Source: Parvularcula sp. BBD 1991-13
GTDB lineage: Bacteria > Pseudomonadota > Alphaproteobacteria > Caulobacterales > Parvularculaceae
Direction of reading: 5' to 3'
DNA length: 64,000 bases
Assembly: GCA_001657385.1 (NCBI GenBank)
Contig: LYSZ01000001.1
Coordinates: 62,001 to 126,000 of the forward strand
A program made the position numbers and the translations under genes. Below the pieces are notes generated by a model that was given only the letters and a program-made list of their open reading frames with translations, did no database searches and was not told where the DNA came from. Positions 28,617 to 62,960 of this stretch are shown here, in pieces. Position 1 is the stretch's first letter. Every line of letters begins with the position of its first letter.

Positions 28617-28634
28617 CGAACAAGTGTTCGCATG
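28617..28634. promoter_or_regulatory. Operator-like site A (GAAC-N4-GTTC-G), single copy
   Basis: CGAACAAGTGTTCG is a perfect inverted repeat with a 2-bp centre; reading GAAC-AAGT-GTTC it is the same pattern as the tandem sites at 58368. It is followed by GCATG, as in the site at 52081. It lies between the divergent esterase-like and TBDR operons. Confidence 0.55.
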
Positions 28635-28703
28635 CAACAACAAATCGATGTGCGAAAAAAGTTATTTAAAAACAAATAGATAAGGTTTTTCAGGATAAAA
28701 TTT

Positions 28704-28716
28704 AGCATAATATGCT
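28704..28716. promoter_or_regulatory. 13-bp palindrome upstream of TBDR
   Basis: AGCATA-A-TATGCT is perfectly symmetric and sits just before a TTGACA hexamer, about 200 bp upstream of the TBDR start. It could be an operator. No similar sequence was noticed elsewhere in the window. Confidence 0.4.
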
Positions 28717-28913
28717 GCGTTGACATGTTAAAGGCAATAAATCTAGCGTTAACTCATGCGGGGTTTTCCGCGGTCGGATGGGGCGCAACGCCGCCTCAAC
28801 GGCGGCCAGCCGGGCGAAACGCGCCCCGCGGGAAGGGGCGTGCGGCGGCCTGTTTCGCGACAGTCTCCGCACGAAGTGCATAGACCAAATAGAACTGTGA
28901 AGGGCGATATATT

Positions 28914-31856
28914 ATGAAAAACTTATGCGAACGCCGCAATTTGCGGCGTCGGCTTTTGCTGGGCACGACCGGGGTTGCGGCGCTGGTCTGCACTGCGGCC
29001 AACGCACAAGAGAGTGACGCTGACGATACGATCATCGTCACCGGCAGCCGTATCGTGGAGGGCAACCTGGTTTCACCGAGCCCGGTCACGTCAATCGGCG
29101 CTGAGGAGTTCGACGCGCGCGGCGTTTTGCGCGTCGAGGATCTTCTGAACACCTTGCCGCAAGTGTCGCCCTCCGAAGGCGCCGGCCGCGCGAACGAAGC
29201 GACCGGCACCGCGACGGTCGATCTTCGCGGCCTCGGGCCCGAGCGCACGCTTGTTCTGGTGAACGGCCGCCGCCTGCCGTTCGGCTCGCCGACCTTTGCG
29301 CCGCCGGACATCAACCAGATCCCGTCCCAGCTTGTCGAGCGCGTTGACGTGCTGACGGGCGGCGCCTCCGCCGTCTACGGCGCGGACGCGGTCGCCGGCG
29401 TCGTCAACTTCATCATGCAGGACGACTTCGAAGGCCTGGAAATCGACATTCAGGGCAGCGCCTTTCAAACCGCGAACAGCGACGACAATCTCGAGCGGGT
29501 GCTGAACGATTTCGACCAGCCGGTGCCCGGCTCCACATTCGACGGCGAATCCGTCAACCTCAACGTCATCTTCGGCCTCAACTCTCCCGACGGCCGCGGC
29601 AACCTGACGAGCTATTTCAACTATCGTCGTCAGTCGGAAGTGCTGCAAGGCGACCGCATCACCAGCGCCTGCGCGCTCGGCACGCGGGACGGCGGCAACG
29701 ATTTCGCCTGCGTCGGTTCGGGTACGACGTTCCCGACTCACTTCGTCGAAGGCACGGCGCTTGACGTCATTATCGACGAGACCACAGGCGACCTGCGCCA
29801 GTTCCAGAGCCCGGAAGACACGTTCAACTTCGCGCCGCTGAACCACCTGCTGCGTCCGGACGAACGGTACAATTTCGGCGCCTACGGCCGTTACGAAATC
29901 AACGATAGCGCCGAGTTCTATGTCGATGCGTCGTACTCCGACGTGACCACCACGGCCCAGATCGCGCCGTCGGGCAATTTCGGCCAACGCACCTTCAACT
30001 GCGACAGCCCGTTCCTGAACGACAGCCTGTTACAGACGCTCTGCCTCGACCGCGGCGTCGACCCGGCGGCGGCCGATCCGGCCGATCGCCTGACAACGCT
30101 GACGATCCAGCGGCGCAACGTCGAAGGCGGCGGGCGTCAGAACCGTATTCAGCACACGACGTTCCGGATCAATGGCGGCTTCCGCGGCGACATCAACGAA
30201 ACCTGGTCCTACGACGTCTTCGGACAATATGGCCAAGTGACGTATAGCGACGTTTCCGCAAATTTCATCAACGGCAACAACGTCGCCAATGCGCTGATCG
30301 TGCGCGAAGACCCGGAAACGGGCGAGCCGGTCTGCCAGAGCGTGCTCGACGGCACCGACCCGAACTGCGTGCCGTGGAACATTTTCGAGCTTGGCGGCGT
30401 CACCCAGGGCGCGCTCGACTATATCCAGGCGCCGGGCTTCCGCACCGGCGACGCGGATCAGATGATCTTCGGCGGTTACGTAAACGGCGATCTCGGCGAC
30501 TACGGACTGAAGTTCCCGTGGGCCGAAACGGGCGTTCAGGCGGTCTTCGGCGCCGAGTATCGCGACGAGTACCTGGTTCAGGAAAACGACTTCCTGACCG
30601 AGAGCGGCGCCCTCGGCAGCGCACGTCCGGACATCGCGGGCGGCATCAAGGTATATGAGTTCTACACCGAGATGCAGATCCCCATCGTCCAGGGCGCTCC
30701 GTTCGCCGACGATCTGTCGATCACCGGCGCCTACCGGTTCTCCGATTTCTACGAGACCACGGGCACGCAAAGCACCTATGCCGGCGGCATTTCCTGGGCG
30801 CCGACGCCGAGCTACCGCATTCGCGCGCAGTATCAGCGCGCCACGCGGTCGCCGAACCCGTTCGAATTGTTCGCCACGCAGGACCAGTTCGAATTCGAAC
30901 TGCCGACCCTGCCGAACGGCAACTCCGACCCCTGCGCGGGAACGACGCCGTTCGCTTCTTTCGAGCAGTGCGCCAATACCGGCGTCACGGCGGCGCAGTA
31001 CGGCAATATCGCCAACAACCCGGCGAACCAGTACACCAACCTGTCGGGCGGCAACGAAGACCTGGAAGTGGAGAAATCCGACACCTTCACGGTCGGCCTG
31101 GTCGCGACGCCGGACTTCATCCCGGGGCTGACCTTCTCGGTGGACTATTTCAACATCGAGGTTGAAGACTTCATCGCGACGGTGCCGGAAGCGCTCACCA
31201 TCAATAACTGCCTTGAGACCGGCGACGAGTTCTTCTGCTCGCTCATCAACCGCGACCCGAGCACCGGTTCGCTGTTCCTTGGCAATGACGGCTTCGTCGT
31301 TGCGACGACGGTGAACACCGGCTCGCTGAAAACGACCGGCATCGACTTCTCGGCGAGCTATCGCTTCGAAGTCGGCGGCTTCGGCGACGTGCGCGTGGAT
31401 TATCTGTCCACCTATCTCCGCAGCGTCGAGAAAGTGCCGCTGCCGGGCGAGGAAGCGTTCGATTGCGCCGGCAAGTATTCCTCCACCAACGCCGAATGCG
31501 GCGTGGCGCAGCCGGTTTACCGCCATCGCCTGCCGGTCACCTGGTCGGCCGCCAATGCGGACATCTCGGCGACGCTGACCTGGCGCTACTTCGGCAGCGC
31601 CGATCTTCTCTCCGACAACCCGGCGCCGGTCGCCGCCACGCTCGATTCCGTCAACTACATTGACCTGTCGGTGCGCGGAGCGATTTCGGAAAATGTCGAA
31701 ATGCGCGCCGGCGTGAACAACCTGTTCGACGTGACCGCGCCGGTCAGCAGCTCGATCGGCGGTTCGGGCGGCAGCTTCGGCAACGGGAACGTGTTCCCGT
31801 CCGCCTACGACGCGCTCGGCCGCTTCCTGTTCGTCGGCGCGACGTTCAGGCTCTAG
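28914..31856 (+). CDS. TonB-dependent receptor, peptide-cluster copy 1
   Basis: 980 residues with signal peptide (ending ANAQ), TonB-box-like DTIIVTGSR, a plug domain (SPSPVTSIGAEEF, VDLRGLGPERTLVLVNGRRLP, DVLTGGASAVYGADAVAGVVNF) and a beta-barrel ending FVGATFRL. This is the receptor subtype common in sphingomonads and Caulobacter for uptake of large or plant-derived substrates, and it differs clearly from the glucan receptor at 5282. Neighbouring M20 and M24 peptidases downstream and the divergent peptidase operon suggest import of peptides. AAGGG precedes the ATG. Confidence 0.92.
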   Translation: MKNLCERRNLRRRLLLGTTGVAALVCTAANAQESDADDTIIVTGSRIVEGNLVSPSPVTSIGAEEFDARGVLRVEDLLNTLPQVSPSEGAGRANEATGTATVDLRGLGPERTLVLVNGRRLPFGSPTFAPPDINQIPSQLVERVDVLTGGASAVYGADAVAGVVNFIMQDDFEGLEIDIQGSAFQTANSDDNLERVLNDFDQPVPGSTFDGESVNLNVIFGLNSPDGRGNLTSYFNYRRQSEVLQGDRITSACALGTRDGGNDFACVGSGTTFPTHFVEGTALDVIIDETTGDLRQFQSPEDTFNFAPLNHLLRPDERYNFGAYGRYEINDSAEFYVDASYSDVTTTAQIAPSGNFGQRTFNCDSPFLNDSLLQTLCLDRGVDPAAADPADRLTTLTIQRRNVEGGGRQNRIQHTTFRINGGFRGDINETWSYDVFGQYGQVTYSDVSANFINGNNVANALIVREDPETGEPVCQSVLDGTDPNCVPWNIFELGGVTQGALDYIQAPGFRTGDADQMIFGGYVNGDLGDYGLKFPWAETGVQAVFGAEYRDEYLVQENDFLTESGALGSARPDIAGGIKVYEFYTEMQIPIVQGAPFADDLSITGAYRFSDFYETTGTQSTYAGGISWAPTPSYRIRAQYQRATRSPNPFELFATQDQFEFELPTLPNGNSDPCAGTTPFASFEQCANTGVTAAQYGNIANNPANQYTNLSGGNEDLEVEKSDTFTVGLVATPDFIPGLTFSVDYFNIEVEDFIATVPEALTINNCLETGDEFFCSLINRDPSTGSLFLGNDGFVVATTVNTGSLKTTGIDFSASYRFEVGGFGDVRVDYLSTYLRSVEKVPLPGEEAFDCAGKYSSTNAECGVAQPVYRHRLPVTWSAANADISATLTWRYFGSADLLSDNPAPVAATLDSVNYIDLSVRGAISENVEMRAGVNNLFDVTAPVSSSIGGSGGSFGNGNVFPSAYDALGRFLFVGATFRL

Positions 31857-31981
31857 GGCGATCATGCGCCGGCCGGTCGACGCTTGCGCCTGGCAAGCCG
31901 TCGCCCGGCCGGCGCCGAACCCTCACGATCGATTCCGGCGGAGAGGCGATGCGCGTCTCCGCCGCCATCCCGGGGAACATC

Positions 31982-33268
31982 ATGAAGAGAGACTTTCGAC
32001 GCTGCGCCATTGCGGCGCTGTTTGCGTTTTCGGCGGCGCTGCCCGCGGGCGCGGCGACGTCGGCGCAACCGCCGCGCGCCCTGCAATCCGATTCCGTTCG
32101 GGACGTTGAGCAGCGCCTCGATGCGGCGCGCGATATCGCCGCCGAACGGCTCATCGCCATCGGCGGGATCGTCTCGCCGTCGGGCGAGGAGGCGGCGCGC
32201 GCGGACGCCGTGGCGGCCATCATGCGCGACATCGGCCTCAAGGACGTCGCCGTCACCGAGGCGACGAACGCTGTCGGGCGCATCCCCGGCCGGTCGGGCC
32301 GCGCGGTCGTTTTCGTGTCCACCCTGGACGATCTGAAAACCGTCGCCGAACATCAGCGAGCGCGGGGAAAACCGCCGGCGCGCCGCGGGACGCGGATCGA
32401 AGGTCCAGGTACGAACACCTCGTCCACCACGGTCGCCATGCTCACCGCCGCCGAAGCGCTGATCGATGCCGGCTTCAGTCCAGAGCACGACCTTGTCTTC
32501 GCGGCGGTCGCCCAGGAGGAGACCGGGCTTGTCGGCATGCGCGCTCTTTACGAGGAAACGAAGGACGACGCCGTCGCCTATATCGACATTCTCGGCGACG
32601 GACGCCGGATCAGTTATGGCGCGCTGGGCATTCACTGGTGGAAAATCACCGCGGAGGGCCCGCCGGGCCATACGCTGCGGGGCGGTCTTCCCAACGTCAA
32701 TCGCGGCATCGCCCGCGCCGTCGACCGTATCCTCGGCCTGCCGCACCCGGAGGAATTCGGCGACCGCATGACCCGCGCGAACGTCGCCATTCTGCGCAGC
32801 GGCGCGGTGTTCAATCACAAGCCGGAAGACGGCTGGTTCTCGCTCGATCTGCGCTCCCTTGATGCGGACGTCATTGCGTCCATGGAGGAAGGAACCCGCG
32901 CGATCCTGAAAGAGGTGAGCGAGGAGACGCAGATCAGTTTCCGCATGGAGCCGGAAAACCTCGTCCCTGGCGGGCAGATCGCGGGCGCGCTCGACAGCGA
33001 CCTCGTCCGCTGGTCGATCGCGATTGCCGAGCATATGGGCTTCGACCCGGCGTTGAGCAACGCCGGCTCGGCCAATCTGAATATCGCCATCGCCGGCGGC
33101 TCGCCGGCGATCGGCCTCGGCGGAGAGCGCGGCGGCCGGCGCGGGTTCCCGGACGAATGGGCCGATCTCGACGCGATGATGCGCACGAGCCGGCATGCGG
33201 CGCTTCTGGCGCTCACGCTCGGCGCCGGCCAGCCTTATTCAACAGGCGCCCATTCCGTCAACGAATGA
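31982..33268 (+). CDS. M20-family peptidase homologue with substituted metal ligands, exported
   Basis: 428 residues from ATG at 31982, where a signal peptide (MKRDFRRCAIAALFAFSAAL) begins; an in-frame ATG at 31949 also has a ribosome-site-like sequence. The fold resembles M20: VSTLDDL at the HxD position, QEETGLVGM and GGHT-like lid residues (PPGHTLRGGLPN) are present. Compared with the intact M20 at 24953, the first zinc His is T114 (D116 kept) and the metal-bridging Asp is T146. It may therefore be inactive, bind one metal or have another role. It follows the TBDR by about 125 bp and precedes an M24 gene. Confidence 0.8.
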   Translation: MKRDFRRCAIAALFAFSAALPAGAATSAQPPRALQSDSVRDVEQRLDAARDIAAERLIAIGGIVSPSGEEAARADAVAAIMRDIGLKDVAVTEATNAVGRIPGRSGRAVVFVSTLDDLKTVAEHQRARGKPPARRGTRIEGPGTNTSSTTVAMLTAAEALIDAGFSPEHDLVFAAVAQEETGLVGMRALYEETKDDAVAYIDILGDGRRISYGALGIHWWKITAEGPPGHTLRGGLPNVNRGIARAVDRILGLPHPEEFGDRMTRANVAILRSGAVFNHKPEDGWFSLDLRSLDADVIASMEEGTRAILKEVSEETQISFRMEPENLVPGGQIAGALDSDLVRWSIAIAEHMGFDPALSNAGSANLNIAIAGGSPAIGLGGERGGRRGFPDEWADLDAMMRTSRHAALLALTLGAGQPYSTGAHSVNE

Positions 33269-33318
33269 AACGGCGCTTCCCGCCTGCGCCTGAACCCCCC
33301 ACCATTGTAGGACCGTCC

Positions 33319-34689
33319 ATGAAAAACCTTTACCGTATCGTCTCCGTTCTGATCATCGCCTGTCTGTCTTCCGCGCGGGCGGAAGTTCCCGAAGCCATGG
33401 ACCCGCGCATGCCGCATATCCTGTCGCTGGAGGAGCGCGCCGCCGTCACCGACGCATGGCTCAAGGAGCGTCTCGACGCCATCGTCGGGCCGCTGATGCG
33501 CCGCGAGGGCGCGCAGATGTGGATCCTCGTGGCGGGGGAATACAACGAAGACCCGGTCGCCAAGACGATGCTGCCGGCGACATGGCTTTCGGCGCGGCGC
33601 ACGACCGTCCTGGTCTTTTTCCACGACCGCGAAAACGACACGGTCGAGCGGCTCGCGGTCGCGCGTTATCCGGTGGCGGATATCTTTCCGTCCGCCTGGG
33701 ACCCTGAAACGCAGCCGGACCAGTGGAAACGCCTTGGCGAGATCGTCGCCGAACGCGACCCGGAGACGATCGCGGTGAACGTCTCCAAAACCTTTCCGCT
33801 TGCCGACGGTCTCAGCGCGGCGATGGAGCGCGAGGTTCGCGGCGCCCTTGGGGACTACGCCGACCGGCTGATCGAACGGCCGGGGCTCGCCCTGGGATGG
33901 CTTGAAACGCGCATTCCGGCGGAAATGGAAGCCTATCCGACCGTCGTGCGGATCGCCCACGCCATCATTGCGGAGACGTTCTCGGAAAGCTCGATGACGC
34001 CTGGCGTGACCACGACCAACGATCTGCGCTGGCGCCTGCGCCAGCGGGTCGCCGATCTCGGGCTGGATGTCTGGTTTCATCCGAGCGTGCACATTCAGCG
34101 CCGCAAGGACGAAGCGTTCTCCATACAGAACATGGGGCTTGACGAAGGCGAGGTCATTCGCCCGGGCGATTTCCTCCATCTTGATTTCGGCATCACCTAT
34201 CTGCGCCTCAACACCGACACCCAGCATCACGCTTATGTGCTGCGGCCGGGCGAAACGCAGGCGCCGAAGGGCCTGCGCGACGGTCTCGCCGCCGCGAACA
34301 AGGTGCAGGACGCGCTGACGCGGGAATTCGCCGTCGGTCTTACCGGCAACGAGCTTCTTACGCGCGCGCGCCGCCGCGCCCTTCGCAGCGTGAAAAAGCC
34401 GTCGATCTACAGCCATCCCATCGGGTATCACGGCCACGGCGCCGGCCCGTGGGTCGGCATGTGGGACAACCAGGAGACCGCCGGCGCGCGCGGCGACCGG
34501 CCGGTTTATCCGAACACGGCCTGGTCGATCGAACTGAACGCAGAGGCCGACGTGCCCGAGTGGGACGGTCAATCGGTTCGGTTCATGACCGAGGAAGACG
34601 CCTATTTCGACGGAGAAACCGTACGCTATCTCGACGGCCGGCAAACCGAGATCACCCTGATCCCCCGTTTGGACGCCTTGCGCCGGTAA
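33319..34689 (+). CDS. Exported M24 metallopeptidase, paralogue B
   Basis: 456 residues from ATG at 33319 (TAGGA upstream) with a short signal peptide ending ARAE. It is a clear paralogue of the protein at 22280: both share SHPIGYHGHGAG, TAWSIEL, TEEDA.FDGETVRYLDGRQT and long stretches between. Metal ligands D (HLDFGITYL), D (LNTDTQHHAY), H, E and E are intact. Periplasmic cleavage at proline-containing bonds is likely. Two copies on either side of one receptor gene, in opposite operons, point to duplication with shared regulation. It is the last gene of the TBDR/M20/M24 run. Confidence 0.9.
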   Translation: MKNLYRIVSVLIIACLSSARAEVPEAMDPRMPHILSLEERAAVTDAWLKERLDAIVGPLMRREGAQMWILVAGEYNEDPVAKTMLPATWLSARRTTVLVFFHDRENDTVERLAVARYPVADIFPSAWDPETQPDQWKRLGEIVAERDPETIAVNVSKTFPLADGLSAAMEREVRGALGDYADRLIERPGLALGWLETRIPAEMEAYPTVVRIAHAIIAETFSESSMTPGVTTTNDLRWRLRQRVADLGLDVWFHPSVHIQRRKDEAFSIQNMGLDEGEVIRPGDFLHLDFGITYLRLNTDTQHHAYVLRPGETQAPKGLRDGLAAANKVQDALTREFAVGLTGNELLTRARRRALRSVKKPSIYSHPIGYHGHGAGPWVGMWDNQETAGARGDRPVYPNTAWSIELNAEADVPEWDGQSVRFMTEEDAYFDGETVRYLDGRQTEITLIPRLDALRR

Positions 34690-34925
34690 GGCGCGGGGAG
34701 GGGAACCGCCTCAAGCGTGCGGGAACGATTGAGGCGGCGTTCCCCGACATGCGCGGCGCGCATGCCGGGAAAGCCCGGTTTGTCTGTTTAAGGATAAATA
34801 CTGACGAATGGCGGCTGGCGGACACTTTCGAGCAGTTCATGGCGCAGGCGGCGAAATCCGGCGCGGCGCGGATAGCCTGAACAAGGCTGAAAAAACCGAA
34901 GCGATATTGACGGAAAAGGTGAACG

Positions 34926-35825
34926 ATGGGCGCATGGCGCGAAGACCCATGGAACGCGGATGAAAGCGAATGGCGCGGCCTTATCGGGCGGGTGCGTGCG
35001 GGACGGGCGCTGAAGCCCGCCTCCTGGCCCGGCGGCGCGCGCTGCGCCGTGGCGCTTTCCTTCGACTGCGACCACGAGACCTTTGAACTCGGCGCCGGCG
35101 CAAAGGCCGTCGGCCGCCTTGCCTGGGGCGAGTTCGGCCGCCGGGTCGGCGCGCCGCGCGTGCTGGAGACGTTACGCCGCCATGACGTGCGGGCGAGTTT
35201 TTTCATGCCCGCCGTTTGTGCGCTGATCGATCCGGACGAGACTCGCGCAATCGTCGACGCCGGGCACGAAATCGGCCTGCACGGCTACATTCACGAGAAC
35301 AATTCCCTCCTTGACGCCGAAACAGAACGCGGCCTGATGCTGCGCGCGCGGGATGTGCTGGAAAAAGCCGCGGGTTCGGCGCCGCTGGGTTTCCGCTCCG
35401 CCAACTGGGACCTCAGCGCGCACACCATTCCCCTCGTGAAGGAACTGGGCTGCGAGTATGACAGCTCGCTGATGGCGGACGAGAGCTGCTACGAACTCCT
35501 GGTCGACGGCGAGGCGACCGGCGTTGTCGAGGTGCCGGTCGAGTGGCTTCGCGACGACGCTGTTTACATGATGTTCAATCGCCAGCCGGCGACCCGGCCC
35601 TGGGCGACGCCGGAAGACGTGTACGGCATATTCAGGCGCGAGCTTGACGCCGCGTGGGAGGAGGGCGGCCTGTTCCAGCTCGTTATGCACCCTTTTGTCA
35701 TCGGCTATCGCTCGCGCATCTGGATCCTGGAACAGCTTATCAGGGACGCGCGCGACAAGGGCGGCGTCTGGTTCGGCACGCATCTGGAAGTCGCGCGCTG
35801 GGCGCGGGACAACGCGGCGGCGTAA
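34926..35825 (+). CDS. Polysaccharide deacetylase-family (NodB/CE4) protein
   Basis: 299 residues, no signal peptide, AAAAGGTG ribosome site upstream. CE4 motif 1 is ALSFDCDHET (the two Asp), motif 2 the H-x3-H of IGLHGYIHEN. GFRSANWDLS and QLVMHPFVIGYRSR match later motifs of the cytosolic branch that includes PuuE-like allantoinase-type hydrolases and peptidoglycan deacetylase PgdA of Helicobacter. It hydrolyses an N-acyl or amide group, substrate unknown. It is convergent with the DUF885 gene at 35860, and the 236-bp gap before it (34690-34925) shows no other gene. Membership of the peptide regulon is uncertain. Confidence 0.82.
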   Translation: MGAWREDPWNADESEWRGLIGRVRAGRALKPASWPGGARCAVALSFDCDHETFELGAGAKAVGRLAWGEFGRRVGAPRVLETLRRHDVRASFFMPAVCALIDPDETRAIVDAGHEIGLHGYIHENNSLLDAETERGLMLRARDVLEKAAGSAPLGFRSANWDLSAHTIPLVKELGCEYDSSLMADESCYELLVDGEATGVVEVPVEWLRDDAVYMMFNRQPATRPWATPEDVYGIFRRELDAAWEEGGLFQLVMHPFVIGYRSRIWILEQLIRDARDKGGVWFGTHLEVARWARDNAAA

Positions 35826-52100: not shown

Positions 52101-52236
52101 TCGTCAAGAACGCTGAATCTGGGTTTTCTGCATCCGAAACCTATGGCAATTTATTGAAATTGCTTAAAAAATCGCATCGACGATTCTGCTTGAGCAACAT
52201 CAAGCGCATTTGTATTGCGGTCATAAATCCGCTATG

Positions 52237-52250
52237 CGAACAATAATTCG
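52237..52250. promoter_or_regulatory. Operator-like site E upstream of semialdehyde dehydrogenase
   Basis: CGAACAATAATTCG on the plus strand reads, on the minus strand, GAAT-TATT-GTTC followed by GCATAGCG, the usual right flank of these sites. It ends 28 bp before the start codon at 52279, within reach of the promoter. Confidence 0.5.
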
Positions 52251-52278
52251 AAAATTTCTCTGGAAAACGGTTGTACCC

Positions 52279-55734: not shown

Positions 55735-55758
55735 GCGAATTTATGTACACTTTTGTCC
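55726..55758. promoter_or_regulatory. Operator-like site H overlapping the start of the minus-strand gene
   Basis: GTTC at 55726-55729 and GTAC at 55745-55748 are exactly 19 bp apart. The second is preceded by GAAT and four bases, as in GAAC-N4-GTTC. The spacer begins GCCATG, as in site G. A further ACAC-TTTT-GTCC lies at 55747-55758. The ATG of the dehydrogenase gene falls within the site, so binding would block its initiation region. Confidence 0.5.
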
Positions 55759-56641: not shown

Positions 56642-58361
56642 TGGGGCGCGCGTCGAGTTGCGCGGCGCCCGGCGGCAGGGCCCCGCCTTCCAGTTCGACT
56701 TCGGCGGGCGCGTCATCGACGCCTATCAAGGCGAGACCATCGCCGCGGCGCTGATCGCCGCCGGGGAGTGGACCTTTCGCAGAACGCGCGACGGCGAAGG
56801 GCGCGGGCCGTTCTGCGGCATGGGCGTATGCGGAGAATGTCTGGTGGAGGTGGACGGCGCGCCGCGCCGCGCCTGTTTCGAAAAGGCGGCGCCGAACCTC
56901 AGGGTGTCGCCGGCTCAGGCGCAGGCGGCCTACGCCCCCCGCGCGCAAAAGACGGCCGCGGCGGTCCGCACGCTCACGCCGGAGGTGCTGATCGTCGGCG
57001 CCGGTCCGGCCTCGCTGGCGGCGGCGAGCGAGGCGGCGGCGGCCGGTCTCGACGTTCTCGTGATCGACGAACGCGCCAAGGCGGGGGGACAGTATTTCAA
57101 GCAGCCCGCGGACGGGTTCGCCATTGCGGAAAACCGTCTTGATGCGCAGTTTCGCGAAGGCGCGGCGCTTTACGACAAAGCGCGCGCCGCCGGCGCGTCT
57201 TTCCTGTTCAGGACGACGGCCTGGGCCGGCGCCGCGGACCCCCTCGAAATCCTTGCGGTGTCGCCCGACGCGCCGCTGCGCATCAGGCCGAGGCTCGTGT
57301 TCCTGGCGCAGGGCGCCTATGAGCGCAATATCGCCGTGCCGGGCTGGACCACGCCCGGCGTCATGACCACCGGCGCGGCGCAGACCTTCCTGCGCGCCTA
57401 TCTGACGACGCCGGGCAAGCGCGTGCTGATCGCCGGCAACGGCCCGTTGAACCTGCAACTGGCGCGGGAACTGACGGACGCCGGCGCGCGCGTGGTCGCC
57501 GTCGCCGAGGCCGCCCCCGCGCCGGGGCCGTCCAGCGTCCTTGACGCCGCCGCAATGACGCTCGCCGCGCCCGGACTGATGCTGGAAGGGGCGAGCCACC
57601 TCTTGACGCTGGCGCGCCGGCGGACCCCGGTGCTGTACGGAACGGCGCTGTCGGCGGTGTACGGGCAGGGGCGGGTCGAAGCCGCGAGCCTGCGCCGTCT
57701 CGGAGCGGACGGGACCTTTCTCGACGCGCCCGAGCGCCGCTTCGAGGCGGACGCGGTATGCATCGGCTACGGGTTCGCGCCCCAGAGCGAGCTTGCCCGC
57801 GCGCTCGGCTGTGCGTTCGAGTTCTCCGCCGCGCGCGGCGTTCTGGAAGCGGTGCGGGCCGAGGACGGGCGGTCGTCCCTTGAGAATGTTTACATCGTCG
57901 GCGATGGCGGCGGTCTTGGCGGCGCGCGGGCGGCCCTCGCCCAGGGCGCCCTCGCCGGGCAGAGCGCGGCCTCGGTTCTCGGACGCGGGGGCGACGCGGC
58001 GCGCGCGGCCCGCCTGCGTCGGGAGTTGCGGCGGGCGCAGCGGTTCCAGCGGGCGCTCTGGCGGCTGTTCGAAGCGCCGCTGATCACATCCCAGTTCGCC
58101 GACGCAGAGACTGTCATCTGTCGCTGCGAATCGGTGCGCAAGGGGACCCTTGCGGGGCTTTGCGAAGACGGCTGGCGCTCCGTGGGCAGCGCCAAGCGCG
58201 CCACCCGCGCCGGCATGGGGCGCTGTCAGGGGCGGTATTGCGCCAGCATGGCGGCCGCGATGATGGGGCCGGCGCCGCTTGGCGAAACCAGCCTGTTCGC
58301 GCCGCGCGCGCCAGGCAAGCCCGTGCGGCTGGCCGACATCGCCGCCTATGCGGAGGATTGA
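56631..58361 (+). CDS. Fused [2Fe-2S] ferredoxin / FAD oxidoreductase / BFD-like subunit (D-hydroxyproline dehydrogenase alpha+gamma type)
   Basis: 576 residues in three parts. A small ferredoxin domain (1-105) has C62, C67, C70 and C82 (CGMGVCGEC...C). An FAD/NAD(P)-type oxidoreductase follows (118-470: VLIVGAGPASLAAASEAAAAG and a second VLIAGNGPLNLQLA). The C-terminal BFD-like Fe-S site uses C497, C499, C532 and C537 (CRC, CQGRYC). In hydrogen cyanide synthase, opine oxidase and the Pseudomonas cis-4-hydroxy-D-proline dehydrogenase these parts are separate small gamma and alpha subunits. The partner beta subunit resembles the DAO-like protein at 61752. An electron-transfer role in that complex is likely. 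Confidence 0.88.
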   Translation: MSGNGARVELRGARRQGPAFQFDFGGRVIDAYQGETIAAALIAAGEWTFRRTRDGEGRGPFCGMGVCGECLVEVDGAPRRACFEKAAPNLRVSPAQAQAAYAPRAQKTAAAVRTLTPEVLIVGAGPASLAAASEAAAAGLDVLVIDERAKAGGQYFKQPADGFAIAENRLDAQFREGAALYDKARAAGASFLFRTTAWAGAADPLEILAVSPDAPLRIRPRLVFLAQGAYERNIAVPGWTTPGVMTTGAAQTFLRAYLTTPGKRVLIAGNGPLNLQLARELTDAGARVVAVAEAAPAPGPSSVLDAAAMTLAAPGLMLEGASHLLTLARRRTPVLYGTALSAVYGQGRVEAASLRRLGADGTFLDAPERRFEADAVCIGYGFAPQSELARALGCAFEFSAARGVLEAVRAEDGRSSLENVYIVGDGGGLGGARAALAQGALAGQSAASVLGRGGDAARAARLRRELRRAQRFQRALWRLFEAPLITSQFADAETVICRCESVRKGTLAGLCEDGWRSVGSAKRATRAGMGRCQGRYCASMAAAMMGPAPLGETSLFAPRAPGKPVRLADIAAYAED

Positions 58362-58367
58362 AATAAA

Positions 58368-58398
58368 GAACAGAAGTTCGCTGTGAGAACTTTTGTTC
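58368..58398. promoter_or_regulatory. Operator-like site F: two perfect GAAC-N4-GTTC palindromes 19 bp apart
   Basis: GAAC-AGAA-GTTC (58368-58379) and GAAC-TTTT-GTTC (58387-58398) are both perfect in their arms, with a 7-bp spacer. The second abuts TTGACT (58399-58404), a plausible -35, placing the operator directly on the promoter of the ABC transporter operon. This is the best copy of the motif in the window and defines it. Confidence 0.7.
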
Positions 58399-58479
58399 TT
58401 GACTGACGTAGCCACCCGTCCCATCGTGTCGCGCGTTATTCGCCGCAGCCGCGGCGGTGTTCCACCAGGGAGGGGAATG

Positions 58480-59328
58480 ATGATGGCCCGCTTGCCGAGA
58501 CTTGTCTTGCTGCCGCTCATGCTCGCCATGACGGCGCTCGCCGCGTGCGGCGGCGGGCGGGACGATGCAGGGGCGGGCGCGCGCATTTCGTCGCTGGAGG
58601 CGATCCGCGAGGCCGGGGTGTTGCGGGCGGGGGTTAATCCGAACTTTCCGCCGATGAGCGTTTACGGCCCCACCAACCAGCTTGAAGGGTTCGACGTCGA
58701 CGTCGCCCGGCGCATCGGCGAGGAGCTTGGCGTCGCGGTGGAGCTGGTGCCGACCGAGGCCGCCCAGCGGGTGCCGTTTTTAAGCTCCAACCGCATCGAC
58801 ATCGCCCTTGGCGCGCTGACGATGACGCCGGAACGCGCCAACATCATCGACTTCACGGTTCCTCTGCATACGGAATCCATGAACGTGCTGACGACGGACA
58901 AGGTCGACGCGCAAAGCTGGAAAGATCTCAACTCCAGCGACATCACGCTGGTCAACATGCGCGGCAACCGGTCTGTCTCGCTTCTCGACGAAGAACTCCC
59001 CGAGGCCAGGAAGCTGCTGGTCGACGGCAACGCCGACACGGTGCGCGCCATCGCGCAGGGGCGCGCCGACGCGATGGTGGAGAACATCGATTTTTTCATC
59101 GGCTTCACGAAAAACTATCCGCAGGTCAACTGGCGGCTGATTGAAGATCCGATTTTCGTCGCCCATTGCGGGATCGGCGTTCCCAAGGGGGAGGACGCGT
59201 TGCGCGAAGCGCTCGACGACATCCTGGTCAAGCTCCATGAAACGGGTTTTATCGAGGAGCGCTGGACGCACTGGTACGGCGCGCCCATGTCGGCGCCGGT
59301 GGACCTCGACCGGGGCGGGGATATCTAG
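58480..59328 (+). CDS. Polar amino-acid ABC transporter, substrate-binding lipoprotein
   Basis: 282 residues from ATG at 58480; three successive ATG codons follow a GGGAGGGG site, and this one has the best spacing with the next. A lipobox (MTALAACGGG) gives a membrane-anchored periplasmic protein. SBP family 3 features: GVLRAGVNPNFPPMS, LEGFDVDVARRIGEELGV, RIDIALGALTMTPERANIIDF. It delivers an amino acid to the two permeases and ATPase encoded next. A hydroxyproline or proline-like ligand is inferred from context only. Confidence 0.88.
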   Translation: MMARLPRLVLLPLMLAMTALAACGGGRDDAGAGARISSLEAIREAGVLRAGVNPNFPPMSVYGPTNQLEGFDVDVARRIGEELGVAVELVPTEAAQRVPFLSSNRIDIALGALTMTPERANIIDFTVPLHTESMNVLTTDKVDAQSWKDLNSSDITLVNMRGNRSVSLLDEELPEARKLLVDGNADTVRAIAQGRADAMVENIDFFIGFTKNYPQVNWRLIEDPIFVAHCGIGVPKGEDALREALDDILVKLHETGFIEERWTHWYGAPMSAPVDLDRGGDI

Positions 59329-59367
59329 AGCCGTTTTCAAGGTCACATGATTTATACAAACGGCTCT
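59327..59367 (+). other. Long-loop hairpin after the binding-protein gene
   Basis: AGAGCCGTTT (59327-59336) and AAACGGCTCT (59358-59367) form a perfect 10-bp stem around 21 nt, beginning in the stop codon. Without a T-run it is more likely an mRNA-stabilising or attenuating structure that gives more binding protein than permease. Confidence 0.55.
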
Positions 59368-59418
59368 GAAGTCTTATCCGGGCGCGCCGCGGAGGCGAAA
59401 CCGCGAAGCGCTCTCGCT

Positions 59419-59463
59419 GCAACGCGCTTCGGCGCAACACGCTTTGACGCCACACGTTTCGAC
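59419..59463. repeat. 15-bp tandem repeat, three copies, between binding protein and permease
   Basis: GCAACGCGCTTCGGC, GCAACACGCTTTGAC and GCCACACGTTTCGAC follow without gaps, then a partial fourth unit (GCCATGACG). Together with the hairpin at 59327 this fills the 200-bp gap. No gene is supported here. Confidence 0.6.
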
Positions 59464-59528
59464 GCCATGACGCGAGGACCGGCGCACGAACCCAACGTCG
59501 CGGCTATTCAAGACGCAAGATACGGGCG

Positions 59529-60203
59529 ATGAACTATACTTTCGACTACGGGGAGGTGCTGGACCATCTGCCCTATCTTCTCGGCGGCGCCGCGCTGACC
59601 TTGCAGATCGCTTTCATCTCCTTCTGGGGCGGGGCGGTGATCGGCCTCGGCGGCGCCATCGGCAAGGTCTATGGCGGACGCCTCAGCCGCTGGTCGATCC
59701 AGGCCTATGTGGTCTTCTTCACCAATACGCCCGCGCTGGTGCAGATCTTTTTCCTGTTTTACGCCCTGCCGGAAGCGGGGATCCTGCTCGACCCGCTGCC
59801 CGCCGTCCTGATCGGGCTCGTCCTCAACGCCGGGGCGTATCTCACCGATATTCTGCGCGCGGGGGTTATTTCCGTGCGCAAGGCTGAGATCGAGGCCGGT
59901 CTGACCCTCGGCATGTCGCGGCTGCAAATCGTGCGGCACGTGATGCTGCCGCATATCGCCAAGACGATTTACGCGCCGCTCTCGAACTTCTTCGTATGGC
60001 TCGTTCTCGGCAGCTCCATCGCCGCGCTGTTCGCGGTGGAGGAACTGACCGGCCGCGCCATCAATATCAGCACCGCCAATCTGCGTACGATCGAAACCTT
60101 CACCATCATCGCCGGCGTCTATGTGGCGCTGACCTTCGCTGCCAGCATCACGCTGGCGCTGATCGGACGCTATGTCTTCCGCGTCAAGGCGAGGATTTTC
60201 TGA
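59529..60203 (+). CDS. Amino-acid ABC transporter permease 1 (HisM/GlnP type)
   Basis: 224 residues with about five membrane segments. The cytoplasmic EAA loop is EIEAGLTLGMSRLQIVRHVMLP, the ATPase contact, and FFTNTPALVQIFFLFYALPE is the usual PAAT permease segment. It pairs with the next permease, whose start overlaps its stop by one base. It forms half of the inner-membrane channel for the amino acid bound by the lipoprotein upstream. Confidence 0.9.
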   Translation: MNYTFDYGEVLDHLPYLLGGAALTLQIAFISFWGGAVIGLGGAIGKVYGGRLSRWSIQAYVVFFTNTPALVQIFFLFYALPEAGILLDPLPAVLIGLVLNAGAYLTDILRAGVISVRKAEIEAGLTLGMSRLQIVRHVMLPHIAKTIYAPLSNFFVWLVLGSSIAALFAVEELTGRAINISTANLRTIETFTIIAGVYVALTFAASITLALIGRYVFRVKARIF

Positions 60204-60889
60204 TGGAACGCATTCTCGCCGAGGCGCCGGCGTTCTTCAATCACTACAATGTCGTTTTCATCCTTCAGGCGATGGGCCGCACCCTGCTGATGACGGTCTT
60301 CGGGTGCGCGGTCGGATTCGGCTTCGGGTTGCTGCTGGCGGTCGCGCGTCAGGGGCGCACAGCCGCCGCCATGCCCGTGCGCATCCTGGCGACGCTCTAT
60401 GTGGAGACGTTCCGGCGCATCCCCTTCCTCGTCGTGCTGTTCATCGTGTTGTACATGATCCAGCCGATATGGCCGACAATCTCGCTTCTCGGCATCGCGA
60501 TCGTTGCGGTCTGCCTTCTGTCGACGGCGTTCCTGTCCGAAATCATCCGGGCCGGGATCGAATCCGTGCCGCCGGCGCAGGTGGAAAGCGCGCGCGTTCT
60601 GAACTTCAATCCGGCGCAGACCCTGTTCTGGGTGATCCTGCCCCAGGCCTGGAAAGTCATCATCCCGCCGGCCATCGCCTTCGCGGTGATGTTCGTGAAA
60701 GACACCTCGCTCGCCTCGCAGCTCGGCGTGGTGGAGCTGACCTTCGCCGGCAAGGTGCTGGTCAATCGCGGCTTTTCCCCGGTCCTCGGTTTCGGCGCGA
60801 TCCTCGTATGCTATTTCCTGTTGTCCTATCCCTTGAGCCTCTTCGGCGCCTATCTGGAGAAACGACTTGCCGCATCTCGCAATCAATGA
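60203..60889 (+). CDS. Amino-acid ABC transporter permease 2 (HisQ/GlnP type)
   Basis: 228 residues from ATG at 60203, overlapping the previous stop by one base. Membrane segments surround YVETFRRIPFLVVLFIVLY and the EAA-type loop QVESARVLNFNPAQTLFWVILPQA. It is the second half of the channel. The ATPase gene begins inside its last codons (23-bp overlap), so the stoichiometry is kept by coupled translation. Confidence 0.9.
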   Translation: MERILAEAPAFFNHYNVVFILQAMGRTLLMTVFGCAVGFGFGLLLAVARQGRTAAAMPVRILATLYVETFRRIPFLVVLFIVLYMIQPIWPTISLLGIAIVAVCLLSTAFLSEIIRAGIESVPPAQVESARVLNFNPAQTLFWVILPQAWKVIIPPAIAFAVMFVKDTSLASQLGVVELTFAGKVLVNRGFSPVLGFGAILVCYFLLSYPLSLFGAYLEKRLAASRNQ

Positions 60890-61604
60890 TCTGCATTGCG
60901 CTTATGGCGATGTGAAAGTGCTGAACGGCGTCTCGCTCGACGCGGACCGTGGCGAGGTGCTGAGCCTGATCGGCCCGTCCGGGTCGGGCAAGAGCACGCT
61001 CCTGCGCGCCCTGATCGGCCTCAGCCCGCCGGCGGCGGGCGCGGTCTCGGTCGGCGGCGCGCCGGTCGACTACCGCGATCGCAAAAGCCTCAGGGCCCTG
61101 CGCGAGCGCATGGCGATCGTGTTTCAGCAGTATAATCTTTTTCAGAACATGACCGTCATGGGCAACGTCACCGTGGCGCCGCTCAAGATCCAGAAGCGCC
61201 CCCGCGAAGAGGTTGAACGCGAGGCGGCCGCGCTGCTCGACAAGGTCGGCATGGGCGCCAAGCGCGACGCTTACCCGGACGCCCTGTCCGGCGGCCAGCA
61301 GCAGCGGGTGGCGATCGCGCGCGCGCTGGCGCTGAAGCCCGAGATCCTGCTCCTCGACGAGGTGACATCCGCCCTCGATCCGGAACGGGTGGGCGAGGTG
61401 CTTGAGGTCATCCGCAATCTGGTCGAGGAAAAGATCACGATGCTGATCGTTTCCCACGAAATGTCCTTCGTGCGCGAAGTGTCCACGAAAGTCGCCATGC
61501 TCGACGGCGGCAAGGTGGTCGAGGTCGGGTCGCCCGAGCGGATCTTCACCGATCCGGCCGAGGCGCGCACCCGCAGTTTCGTCAACTCCATCCTGCGGCA
61601 CTGA
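60867..61604 (+). CDS. Amino-acid ABC transporter ATPase (GlnQ/HisP type)
   Basis: 245 residues from TTG at 60867 (GGAGA upstream, overlapping the permease). Walker A GPSGSGKST at 36-44, Q-loop VFQQYNLFQNMTVMGNV, signature LSGGQQQRVAIARAL, Walker B EILLLDEVTSALDP and switch H in LIVSHEMSF. These are the standard polar amino-acid uptake ATPase motifs. It ends the four-gene transporter operon and is convergent with the DAO-like gene. Confidence 0.93.
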   Translation: MPHLAINDLHCAYGDVKVLNGVSLDADRGEVLSLIGPSGSGKSTLLRALIGLSPPAAGAVSVGGAPVDYRDRKSLRALRERMAIVFQQYNLFQNMTVMGNVTVAPLKIQKRPREEVEREAAALLDKVGMGAKRDAYPDALSGGQQQRVAIARALALKPEILLLDEVTSALDPERVGEVLEVIRNLVEEKITMLIVSHEMSFVREVSTKVAMLDGGKVVEVGSPERIFTDPAEARTRSFVNSILRH

Positions 61605-61637: not shown

Positions 61638-61751
61638 GCGAGCCGCAATCGGCGCTGGATTGTTGTGCGGCGCGCGCCGGCGATCCGCAAAACCGGCGAT
61701 CCGCTTTTGCCGCAACACCCTTGAGGCGCCGGGGCGACAGCGGGCGGGGTC

Positions 61752-62882
61752 CTATCGCGGCGCGAAGCATGACAGGTCCGCTCGCGTTTGCGGCGTTTTG
61801 CCCTGGGCGAGGTCGGCGACGATCGAGGCGGTCGCAAGACTCGCGGTGAAGCCGATCCAGGGCGCGTAGGCCATGAAGAAGCCCGGCGCGCCCGGCGCCT
61901 CGCCGATAATCGGCCGCCAGTCCGCATTGCCGTTCACGAATGCGGCCCATGTCCGCAAGAGCTCGACATCTGCAAGACCGGGAACCGTGTCCACGGCGAG
62001 CTTGACGTTGCGCGCCAGCGCTTTGGGGTCGACCACCGGCCTGCCGGCGGCGTCGAGCCGGGCGGGCCAGCCGCCGCCGATGATGATCGATCCGGCGCGG
62101 GTCTGTTTCAGCGTCAGTTTCTCCGCCGCCGCGTATACAAGGTGCGAGACCAGCGGCGCCGCGGGTGCGGTCACCGAGAGCTGGATCGGGAACGCCTCGA
62201 TGTCCATGCGCATCCCCGCCATCTGCGCGATCCGGCCGGAGGCGGCGCCGGCGGCGTTGACGATCCGGCGCGCCTTCACCAGGCCCTGCGAGGTCGTCAG
62301 TTCGAACCCCTCGCGGCCGCGCTCGATCGCCGCGACCTCGCAGCCGGACAGAAGCGAGGCGCCTAGCCGATTTGCTGCTTTTGCGAACGCGGGTGCGCAA
62401 AGAAGGGGGTTCGCCTTTCCTTCCGTGGGGCAATAGGCGCCGCCCGTCAGCCGTCCGGAAAGGTAGGGCGCGCGGTCCTTCAACGCACTCGCCGAAAGGA
62501 GCTCGACGGTCACGCCCGCCGCCCGCTCGATGGCGGCCTTGCGCTCGATCTGGCGCATTTCCGCCTCGCTCGCCGCCACCAGCAGCCCGCCGGTCATGGA
62601 GACTTCCAGGTCGGTCCCGAGACGGGACTCGACCTCTCGCCAAAGGTCAATGGAATCAAGGAGTAAGGGGAGCGTCTGCGAGAACGCGGCGGCCCAGTCC
62701 GGGCCCAGCCGGACAAACGGATCGTGCGGAATCTGAACATGCAAACTGCCCGCATTGGCCCCCGAGGCGGCGCTGTTGATCTCGTCGCGCTCCAGGAGAA
62801 TCACCTTCGCCCCGTCTTCGGCCAGACGCCATGCGGTTGCGCAGCCGGTCAGGCCGCCGCCGATAATTGCTGTATCGTACAT
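61752..62882 (-). CDS. DAO-like FAD amino-acid oxidoreductase (D-hydroxyproline dehydrogenase beta-subunit type)
   Basis: 376 residues from ATG at 62882; no strong ribosome site. FAD motif TAIIGGGLTGCATAWRLAEDGAKVILLE at the N-terminus, SGANAGSLHVQIPHDPF after it and a C-terminal FAD contact GFFMAYAPWIGFTASLATA. It belongs to the glycine/D-amino-acid oxidase family, near the beta subunits of opine oxidase, hydrogen cyanide synthase and cis-4-hydroxy-D-proline dehydrogenase. It probably works with the fused Fe-S/FAD protein at 56631 to oxidise a cyclic D-imino acid. It is divergent from the DHDPS-family gene, with a tandem operator-like site between them. Confidence 0.87.
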   Translation of the reverse strand: MYDTAIIGGGLTGCATAWRLAEDGAKVILLERDEINSAASGANAGSLHVQIPHDPFVRLGPDWAAAFSQTLPLLLDSIDLWREVESRLGTDLEVSMTGGLLVAASEAEMRQIERKAAIERAAGVTVELLSASALKDRAPYLSGRLTGGAYCPTEGKANPLLCAPAFAKAANRLGASLLSGCEVAAIERGREGFELTTSQGLVKARRIVNAAGAASGRIAQMAGMRMDIEAFPIQLSVTAPAAPLVSHLVYAAAEKLTLKQTRAGSIIIGGGWPARLDAAGRPVVDPKALARNVKLAVDTVPGLADVELLRTWAAFVNGNADWRPIIGEAPGAPGFFMAYAPWIGFTASLATASIVADLAQGKTPQTRADLSCFAPR

Positions 62883-62926
62883 AATTCGGGATATAATCGT
62901 CTCCAAAGCCGCCGAAAGTTGTTTAC

Positions 62927-62960
62927 ACCGTTTTGTTCGCCATGGTAACAACTGTACGCA
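62927..62960. promoter_or_regulatory. Operator-like site G: two copies 19 bp apart
   Basis: The right arms GTTC (62935-62938) and GTAC (62954-62957) are 19 bp apart; the second has the full TAAC-AACT-GTAC form followed by GCAA, the first a degraded left arm (ACCG). The spacer begins GCCATG as in site H. It serves the divergent DAO-like and DHDPS-family genes. Confidence 0.55.

Follow-up and report, generated by a model that had tools for sequence, protein, structure and literature searches.

Short sequence boxes recur between the genes of a large catabolic cluster in the window (the whole stretch of DNA that was analyzed, 64 kb), and they are very probably operators at which an IclR-family protein of the PcaR/PcaU/PobR sequence subfamily (positions 53822-54607; hereafter the 53822 protein) binds to control a single local regulon. 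The sites match the IclR-family type and the only member of this family that was found in the genome is encoded among these very genes, which are therefore most likely co-controlled. A sequence-only reading of the same DNA had proposed one regulon joining peptide import to amino-acid catabolism. The single regulon is supported by the geometry of the sites, their conservation, the single IclR_C gene, and the occurrence of the motif next to PcaR-like genes at other loci of the class; the metabolic part is a reasonable way to read the gene list, which points to a substrate that may be peptide-derived.

Table 1. Genes of the cluster and predicted operator sites, with positions in the window.
Feature	Position	Strand	Remarks
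Candidate operon: esterase-like protein, M20 peptidase, two M24 peptidases	22280..28254	-	One M24 peptidase resembles Xaa-Pro dipeptidases; gene order shared by Henriciella/Hyphomonas
Operator, 3 boxes, steps 9 and 11	28616..28642	+	Gap between esterase-like gene (-) and TonB receptor 1 (+)
TonB receptor 1, M20/M28 peptidase, M24 peptidase, polysaccharide-deacetylase-family protein	28914..35825	+
Operator, 3 boxes, steps 10 and 9	40317..40342	-	Faces DUF885 gene (-); absent from the sequence-only reading
Operator-like, 3 weaker boxes, steps 10 and 9	40670..40695	-	Absent from the sequence-only reading
Operator, 4 alternating boxes, steps 10, 9, 10	40988..41023	+	2 nt upstream of TTGAC -35-like element of TonB receptor 2; homologous promoter in G535
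TonB receptor 2, DUF885 protein	41208..45901	+
NAD-kinase-like protein	46004..47179	-
Two-box site	47202..47217	-	About 20 bp ahead of NAD-kinase-like gene (-); counterpart in G535
Operator, 3 boxes, steps 9 and 10	47309..47334	+	6 nt ahead of TTGAC; upstream of gcvPA; counterpart in G535
Glycine dehydrogenase subunit GcvPA, class-V-aminotransferase-family partner	47396..50352	+	GcvPA passes the NCBIfam cut-off; partner taken as GcvPB
Class III aminotransferase	50484..51917	-
Two-box site, GTAC-N4-GTAC	52079..52094	-	Upstream of class III aminotransferase gene (-); counterpart in G535
Operator, 4 boxes, steps 9, 10, 9	52217..52251	+	Upstream of SSADH-type aldehyde dehydrogenase gene; counterpart in G535
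Aldehyde dehydrogenase, succinate-semialdehyde type	52279..53742	+	TIGR01780 cut-off passed
IclR-family regulator, PcaR/PcaU/PobR sequence subfamily	53822..54607	+	Putative binder of the sites; TIGR02431 cut-off passed
3-Hydroxyacyl-CoA-dehydrogenase/lambda-crystallin-like protein (HCDH)	54610..55734	-
Operator, 3 boxes, steps 10 and 9	55725..55750	-	Over start codon of HCDH gene (-), SDR gene diverging; counterpart in G535
2Fe-2S/FAD oxidoreductase, amino-acid-type ABC transporter (SBP, 2 permeases, ATPase)	56631..61604	+
Operator, 4 boxes, steps 9, 10, 9	58366..58400	+	Last box overlaps TTGAC; ahead of ABC transporter; counterpart in G535
DAO-type FAD oxidoreductase	61752..62882	-
Operator, 3 boxes, steps 10 and 9	62934..62959	.	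Gap between DAO-type gene (-) and DHDPS-family gene (+); DAO counterpart in G535
DHDPS-family enzyme	63078..63998	+

Alternating boxes form intergenic arrays

The unit of the sites is a 7-bp box, TGTTCGC, that alternates in orientation with steps of 9 and 10 bp between the box centres; the 19-bp step noticed in the sequence-only reading arises because these two steps add up. The window contains eight box triples with this 9/10 spacing, which make up six arrays and are all (8/8) intergenic, whereas 80 alternative step pairs gave a mean of 0.85 triples and 0.14 intergenic triples. No such triple was present in 100 kb of flanking DNA, and the full array is hence confined to the cluster within the 164 kb scanned. 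When 80 kb of the related genome G535 were scanned, six 9/10 triples (four arrays) were detected, six of six in intergenic DNA, with a mean of 0.1 intergenic triples for other geometries. The promoters differ in the number of boxes (two to four) and in box quality. Palindrome centres in the four-box arrays at 40988, 52217, and 58366 lie 19 nt apart, within the range of 18-22 nt of tandem IclR sites, and the window arrays fit the published IclR three-box consensus, in which GTNCG-N5-6-CGNAC and TGRAACA-N1-2-TGTTYCA pairs alternate in direction.

The sequence-only reading had described this signal as a GAAC-N4-GTTC operator recurring in nearly every promoter region. Its recurrence is real, but the bare string is not the unit. 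Exact copies occur four times in the window (28618, 47311, 58368, and 58387), each between called genes, and those at 58368 and 58387 are as perfect as had been claimed; allowing up to one mismatch, 39 matches compare with 26.9 +/- 4.8 in shuffled sequences. Throughout the genome there are 70 exact copies versus 89 of the reversed control, and since the string is thus not enriched and could not by itself carry the claim, we rejected it as the unit. The repeat at 40987/41006 and the pairs at 55726/55745 and 62935/62954 are present as described; of the supposed single copies, those at 28618 and 47311 are exact, but those at 47204 (GGAC-N4-GTTC), 52081 (GTAC-N4-GTAC), and 52238 (GAAC-N4-ATTC) are degenerate. 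From 28 to 63 kb, every one of the six divergent regions has a site, as does the promoter of the ABC transporter; these make up 7 of the 15 intergenic stretches of at least 60 bp beyond 28 kb. The remaining eight are same-strand or convergent gaps, among them the gap upstream of iclR, which has a weak site only (score 5.8). Rarity elsewhere holds for the full array within the 164 kb scanned, but not for the bare string, which is as frequent as its control.

Matrix and pattern scans

Because window sites went into the making or the selection of the scan pattern and the weight matrices, the results of the window matrix, the pattern, and the two-genome matrix are partly circular. The best 20 hits in the 64 kb of a 26-bp matrix built from 13 window sites are all intergenic and all located between 28 and 63 kb, a ranking that is circular because the matrix stems from the same sites. 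In leave-one-out scans, seven strong sites were outranked by just 5 to 14 window hits each; the numbers of better hits were higher for the weaker sites at 52081 (26), 28618 (27), 47204 (47), and 62946 (80), and reached 252 and 408 for the sites as first registered at 62927 and 58387, respectively. A matrix derived from 16 sites of two other genomes placed its 17 best window hits, several of which share one array, in intergenic DNA of the cluster.

Genome-wide, the pattern had 29 matches, 15 of them in the window (1.5% of the genome), while its reversed control had more (41); at up to two mismatches, nine of ten matches fell into the window and the tenth into an ORF. A site within an ORF on contig C32 was judged to be due to chance. 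The 31-bp double pattern was found in 12 places versus 4 for its control, and its sole perfect occurrence is in the window. A looser three-box pattern with three mismatches proved too permissive and was discarded, as it showed no genome-wide enrichment (929/914 versus 1110/1075). Outside the cluster, contig C10 carries a site at a score of 20.0, and L044 a stretch at 17.2. The matches of the genome-wide pattern are partly concentrated in two other genomes, with 8 of 21 in the cluster region of G535 and 2 of 14 in the corresponding module of G517; in G518, G528, and G044 they are unconcentrated and fewer than those of the control.

The 53822 protein

The description of the 53822 protein as a PcaR-like regulator and the only one of the IclR type was borne out. 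It scores 313.5 bits against TIGR02431, the NCBIfam model of the PcaR/PcaU/PobR family (cut-off 284.75), and combines an N-terminal IclR winged helix-turn-helix domain (PF09339, 60.0 bits) with a C-terminal IclR_C effector domain (PF01614, 144.9 bits); its gene is the sole IclR_C gene found in the genome, which is 98% complete. Among solved structures, PcaR of Pseudomonas putida (8eju) is its second-best match (213.8 bits). Three of the five residues reported to contact succinate in that protein are kept (Y122, S210, and N227), and two are changed (V147 and P229). The noted likeness of the sites to the PcaR box is likewise sound: GTNCG-N5-6-CGNAC is the group that the main text of PMC8222616 assigns to PcaR, PcaU, PobR, CatR, and others. 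No beta-ketoadipate or 4-hydroxybenzoate genes were recognized among the families of the window proteins scanned, and we do not claim that the 53822 protein acts as a PcaR/PcaU/PobR-type controller of aromatic-acid catabolism.

Gene content of the cluster

With its receptors, peptidases, and glycine and semialdehyde enzymes, the content of the regulon is unusual. The cluster also includes DUF885 proteins and a conserved hydrolase without a Pfam family above the cut-off; an OYE-type flavin enzyme is encoded immediately beyond the window, after the DHDPS-family gene, as is a beta-keto acid cleavage enzyme. The predicted fold of the esterase-like protein (mean pLDDT 83) matches alpha/beta hydrolases, both feruloyl-esterase and dipeptidyl-peptidase types, with sequence identities of 9-16%, and would fit the cleavage of either an ester or a peptide; given its feruloyl-esterase-like fold, an aromatic ester is a possible substrate. 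We considered the catabolism of hydroxyproline (collagen) because DHDPS, DAO, aldehyde dehydrogenase, and prolidase-like genes co-occur, but did not adopt it: the aldehyde dehydrogenase scores 689 bits on TIGR01780 versus 377.8 bits for the alpha-ketoglutarate-semialdehyde type, and a proline racemase/epimerase was not met among the genes scanned. A carnitine-like route via HCDH and the beta-keto acid cleavage enzyme is a further possibility; HCDH scores far under the carnitine dehydrogenase cut-offs.

Conservation of the sites

In G535, whose IclR protein is 75% identical to the 53822 protein, all six promoter regions with a clear homologue carry sites, so that the motif is conserved in homologous promoters, as the proposal of one regulon had implied. 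Between the two genomes the short boxes are conserved and the sequence between them is not; the position relative to the TTGAC -35-like element is kept in both at the promoters of TonB receptor 2, gcvPA, and the ABC transporter. In G517 (IclR 67% identical), both the region ahead of iclR and the receptor|esterase gap contain sites. Loci of relatives with this gap were located with an esterase alignment as the scan query; a search of the named genomes with the IclR protein as the query gave no match. In six of the eight genomes with an IclR homologue, the window included, the best site of the gap was reached by 0 of 100 shuffles, and by 3 and 8 of 100 in L188 and L191, respectively. In Henriciella/Hyphomonas the motif has diverged (best score in L191, 12.7).

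At the level of the class, 11 of 29 PcaR-like loci (106 kb) possess a site scoring at least 20, in every case no more than 300 bp from the regulator gene, and 18 do not. There was no site of this score in 98 control loci (284 kb), which were fetched by motif-like patterns, overlap in part, and include six from the clusters (centres masked); IclR-less named loci (433 kb) contained two. Ten proteins were scanned as neighbours at nine of the 11 motif-bearing loci: the aromatic ones are those of L141 and L145, and six are without a family.

Alternative explanations

GAAC-N4-GTTC is the type of SOS box bound by LexA in Bacillus and mycobacteria. A LexA-like repressor, or another regulator outside the IclR family, might own the sites, with the iclR gene nearby by chance; the core of the motif fits such a box, and binding of the 53822 protein is a prediction. 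A good site is also present at the IclR-less locus L214 of Sphingomonas flavalba (23.3 bits, 153 bp after the esterase gene), which lies on a short contig, so that a distant iclR gene is possible. The conserved unit with its alternating boxes at 9/10 bp is, however, longer than an SOS box, and the cluster genes are catabolic, none being recognized as a DNA-repair gene. Moreover, the motif adjoins PcaR-like genes elsewhere in the class and accompanies the IclR homologue in homologous receptor|esterase gaps, whereas the gap of L218, where these divergent genes are likewise present but the 21.7 kb lack an IclR homologue, is at chance level (76 of 100 shuffles). We thus regard a non-IclR owner of the sites as very unlikely.

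The differences in box number and quality between promoters, and a metabolism that looks composite, would also suit overlapping regulons in which several IclR-type or unrelated regulators share the sites. We give this little credence, in view of the single IclR_C gene in a nearly complete genome and of Pfam having recognized no other regulator family among the genes from 28 to 63 kb. Palindromic repeats that recur between genes are reminiscent of dispersed mobile or structural (REP-like) elements, intergenic by chance; the flank devoid of box triples, the conservation of the boxes but not of the spacers, and their fixed placement relative to three -35-like elements in two genomes leave this explanation with hardly any probability.

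Proposed regulation and its significance

Each operator through which the 53822 protein would act comprises two to four TGTTCGC boxes, which alternate in direction and have their centres spaced by 9 and 10 bp. The 9 + 10 unit would set successive palindromes 19 bp, about two turns of DNA, apart on the same DNA face, an arrangement that a dimer or tetramer would fit. Arrays that reach, or stop shortly before, a TTGAC -35-like element (TonB receptor 2, gcvPA, and the ABC transporter) have the layout expected of an activator; sites over or abutting a start codon (HCDH and the NAD-kinase-like gene) may serve repression or be read from a leaderless transcript. The ligand is likely to be a small carboxylate derived from the substrate.

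Somewhat short of an even chance, in our estimation, is a broader scenario in which a regulator of a subfamily named for aromatic-acid degradation was rewired in Henriciella/Hyphomonas-related bacteria into a local master switch for a peptide-like substrate. It would have started from a small receptor|hydrolase-peptidase module and, by operator gain, extended to seven intergenic regions that cover import across the outer and inner membranes, peptidases, and degradation in the direction of glycine and succinate; the inducer would be a carboxylate end product. The minimal module (Henriciella and Hyphomonas, at loci L188, L190, and L205, and G517) and the expanded gene set (window genome and G535) would then exemplify regulon growth by operator gain, and a PcaR-type regulator would act outside aromatic acids. 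The predicted regulator-operator pair offers a testable entry to a large uncharacterized catabolic cluster; shared control would tie the unassigned hydrolase and the DUF885 proteins to peptide/amino-acid use and hence hints at what to assay.

Comparison with known systems

By title and abstract, no IclR regulator of peptide or glycine use was found in searches of one open-access library, and the stem "peptid" is absent from the main text of PMC8222616, which describes IclR regulogs as mainly concerned with aromatic or sugar metabolism. The orthologous group of the 53822 protein could be listed in the supplementary regulog tables of that study. In a phenanthrene context, deletion of an IclR regulator raises TonB receptors, according to a passage of PMC13273656.

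The alternating and tandem box architecture itself is already known for IclR regulators. The main text of Suvorova and Gelfand 2021 (PMC8222616) predicts alternating three-box sites for 32 orthologous groups and, for 94, tandem sites whose centres are separated by 18-22 nt, the same architecture as in the window arrays. PcaU of Acinetobacter baylyi, listed there for 4-hydroxybenzoate/protocatechuate use, is reported to need the third box for binding; its operator and that of PobR resemble ours in pairing a TTTGTTCGATWATCGMACAMA-like box pair with an external third box. Here, in contrast, an array can have as many as four boxes, arrays are spread over seven intergenic regions, and the genes encode receptors, peptidases, an amino-acid-type transporter, and glycine/semialdehyde enzymes. 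With PcaR of Corynebacterium glutamicum (GTTCGC-N3-GCGAAC) and P. putida (GTTCGATAATCGCAC), the window shares the inner palindrome and the N5 spacing of the GTTCG/CGNAC core; it differs in that no beta-ketoadipate gene was recognized among the window proteins scanned and in two of the five ligand-contact residues. From the same class come the PcaR-like loci L141 and L145, where the same motif adjoins regulators 48% and 46% identical to the 53822 protein, but a neighbour is catechol-dioxygenase-like (L141) or PcaD-like (L145), both under the NCBIfam cut-offs.

Alternating Box Arrays in the Divergent Promoters of the Cluster

The sequence-only reading had proposed that a GAAC-N4-GTTC operator, often tandem at a 19-bp step, recurs in most promoter regions between 28 and 63 kb. 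The exact string is present four times in the window, always in intergenic DNA, but is weak evidence when taken alone since the 4.24-Mb genome contains 70 copies of it compared to 89 of the reversed control. Alignment of the sites yielded a longer consensus, roughly CGAACAWWTGTTCGCWNANCGAACAA, which breaks down to the 7-bp box TGTTCGC in alternating orientation with centre spacings of 9 and 10 bp; the 19-bp step is one such 9+10 bp unit. With boxes called at four or more of seven matches and steps of 8-9 and 10-11 bp permitted, nine of the 11 sites possess three or four boxes and two possess two; a single step measures 11 bp. As a control for this geometry, we compared the 9/10 steps with the other 80 step pairs between 7 and 15 bp (minimum of 4 matches per box and 16 of 21 overall). 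The 9/10 steps gave eight triples in six arrays in the window, all of them intergenic, compared to a mean of 0.85 triples (0.14 intergenic) for the other pairs. In G535, a genome encoding a close IclR orthologue, 80 kb contain six triples in four arrays, again all intergenic (control mean, 0.1 intergenic), and none were found in 100 kb of flanking DNA.

Sites occupy all six divergent intergenic regions beyond 28 kb (esterase/receptor 1, DUF885/receptor 2, NAD-kinase-like/gcvPA, aminotransferase/SSADH-type dehydrogenase, HCDH/SDR and DAO/DHDPS) and the ABC transporter promoter. The eight remaining stretches of at least 60 bp, same-strand or convergent gaps that include the one before iclR, scored low, and the proposed distribution holds to this extent. 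A matrix built from 16 sites of G535 and G517 only, the latter being the second genome with an IclR orthologue, placed its top 17 window matches in intergenic DNA of the cluster; 7 of 15 cluster stretches reached a score of 10, compared to 2 of the 54 stretches in the rest of the window and in the flanks (Fisher p = 1.7e-4; Mann-Whitney p = 0.003), a cross-validation short of full independence as the training sites were chosen with the window matrix. In leave-one-out analysis of the first 13-site matrix, strong sites stayed near the top of the window while the weakest dropped out. Genome-wide, a degenerate pattern with up to three mismatches gave 29 matches, of which 15, several sharing one array, fall in the window (1.5% of the genome); 11 of the 14 outside lie within called genes and three do not. 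At up to two mismatches, nine of ten matches are in the window, and the tenth is within an ORF. Since the reversed control has 41 matches in total, the signal resides in the concentration in the window and not in the match count.

Positions of the regulator gene and of individual features observed alongside the arrays (window coordinates unless a locus is named)
Feature	Position	Observation
Separate cluster	1612-14954	GH3 and GH16 glycosidases, TonB receptor, two tryptophan-halogenase-like proteins, SapC, cupin, sodium:solute symporter; resembles a locus for polysaccharide use and lacks the operator
Esterase-like hydrolase	26557-28254	Unassigned at the Pfam cut-offs; identity 78-82% to the Henriciella, Hyphomonas and G517 homologues and ~46-73% to those of Caulobacter, sphingomonads, Gammaproteobacteria and Flavobacteriaceae; predicted structure similar to alpha/beta hydrolases of the feruloyl-esterase and DPP types
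Probable third DUF885-type protein	35860-37470	No Pfam hit; assigned because a 60% identical G517 homologue matches DUF885
Intergenic region	40164-41288	Unusually long (~1 kb) and holding three operator sites; may contain an unannotated small gene or RNA
iclR	53822-54607 (+)	
HCDH-like start codon	55734	Covered by the operator; gene possibly leaderless, or start codon possibly misplaced
Intergenic place outside cluster	G000 contig C10:24260 (L113)	Motif-like; 20.0 on window matrix; may be a remote regulon member or a chance match
Intergenic place outside cluster	L044:1977-2252	Motif-like; 17.2 on ortholog matrix; between two genes on the minus strand, behind a B12/radical-SAM gene; may be a remote regulon member or a chance match
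Operator-like site, Sphingomonas flavalba	L214:1137	Score 23.3; 153 bp past the esterase gene

Conservation and Linkage to PcaR-Like Regulators

Among 299 genomes of the order, IclR orthologues were found in G535 (75% identity) and G517 (67%). All six G535 promoter regions with a clear homologue carry sites (receptor 2, NAD-kinase-like/gcvPA, aminotransferase/SSADH, HCDH, ABC transporter and DAO), and further sites precede a different DUF885 gene and accompany the DHDPS and SDR genes; other matches scoring at least 13.5 in its 80 kb comprise three within genes and two intergenic ones outside the cluster. In G517 the module is smaller, with iclR, a DAO-like gene, peptidases and receptor 1 followed by the divergent genes esterase-M20-M24-M24; its sites lie in the receptor/esterase gap and upstream of iclR. 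Over whole relatives the degenerate pattern gave a mixed result: 8 of 21 matches fall in the G535 cluster region and 2 of 14 in the G517 module, and the genomes G518, G528 and G044 showed no concentration.

A scan of named genomes for the esterase gave 31 loci, in six of which (Henriciella, Hyphomonas and an alphaproteobacterial bin) iclR adjoins receptor 1. Together with the window and G517, these provide eight receptor/esterase gaps accompanied by an IclR homologue; the best site was reached by none of 100 shuffles in six genomes, by 3 in L188 and by 8 in L191. L218 shares the divergent gap and has no IclR homologue within reach; its best site is no better than chance (76 of 100 shuffles), and the same holds for 15 stretches taken from ten loci without IclR (20 to 92 of 100). 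The 25 named loci without IclR (433 kb) together hold two sites scoring at least 20, on L206 and L214. The latter counts against a strict link between motif and IclR, as no IclR homologue was found on its 11-kb piece, unless S. flavalba carries iclR elsewhere.

Across 385 genomes of the class, we obtained 37 further IclR matches (E of 1e-40 or better) and DNA for 29. Of these 29 loci (106 kb), 11 have a site scoring at least 20, in each case no more than 300 bp from the regulator gene, and no such site was present at a greater distance; such sites are absent from all 98 control loci (284 kb, centres masked), which were fetched by motif-like patterns, overlap in part and include six from the clusters. 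This comparison indicates that the motif type travels with PcaR-like proteins. Scanning ten neighbour proteins at nine of the 11 loci turned up one resembling catechol dioxygenases and one resembling PcaD, neither of which reached the cut-off; two more were assigned to families with no aromatic name, and the other six to no family. Other PcaR-like regulators (37-40% identical) in L051-L054 (G032, G025, G022, G004) lie near a variant, CGAACTTGACTTCGATCTACGAAG-like array with TTCG-N5-CGAA cores, possibly a sister regulon with altered boxes.

Regulator, Promoter Layout and Predicted Substrate

The iclR product passes TIGR02431, the PcaR/PcaU/PobR family, in line with the PcaR-type regulon guessed from the sequence; this membership is by sequence and is no claim of a functional PcaR. 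A search of the genome (98% complete) found no other IclR_C protein, and Pfam recognised no other regulator among the genes at 28-63 kb. Of the five residues described as succinate contacts of P. putida PcaR (PMC12455658), three are retained (Y122, S210, N227) and two positions are altered (V147, P229); hence, a related carboxylate as ligand would be a guess.

Inspection by eye of both the window and G535 placed a TTGAC element 2-7 nt beyond the array end, or overlapping it in one case, for receptor 2, gcvPA and the ABC transporter; the remaining promoters inspected showed none immediately following the site. An array at or just before TTGAC would represent the layout of an activator touching RNA polymerase. 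The sites of the HCDH and NAD-kinase-like genes reach into the start codon or end shortly before it, an arrangement that would permit repression or a leaderless transcript.

The cluster encodes TonB receptors, an amino-acid-type ABC transporter, DUF885 proteins and peptidases of the M20 and M24 families. Also encoded are GcvPA with its partner, a DHDPS-family enzyme, a class III aminotransferase, a dehydrogenase of the SSADH type and an FAD/2Fe-2S and DAO pair. Some peptidases possess export-like N-termini, and one is close to Xaa-Pro dipeptidases of known structure. Just outside the window are an OYE-type enzyme and a beta-keto acid cleavage enzyme, the latter with a 73% identical homologue in the same cluster of G535. 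Peptide-derived amino compounds are the likeliest substrate; given the feruloyl-esterase-like fold of the modelled esterase, it may instead be an aromatic ester.

Comparison With Known IclR Systems

Taken together, the data support well a real local IclR regulon with predicted binding. Its operator architecture is already known for the IclR family: PMC8222616 describes two box arrangements as well as three-box sites, reported for 32 orthologous groups, and tandem sites spaced by 18-22 nt, reported for 94, and gives the C. glutamicum PcaR site as GTTCGC-N3-GCGAAC. Regulon content of this kind was not met in the literature searched, the supplementary tables of that paper apart. What sets this regulon apart appears to be its gene set.
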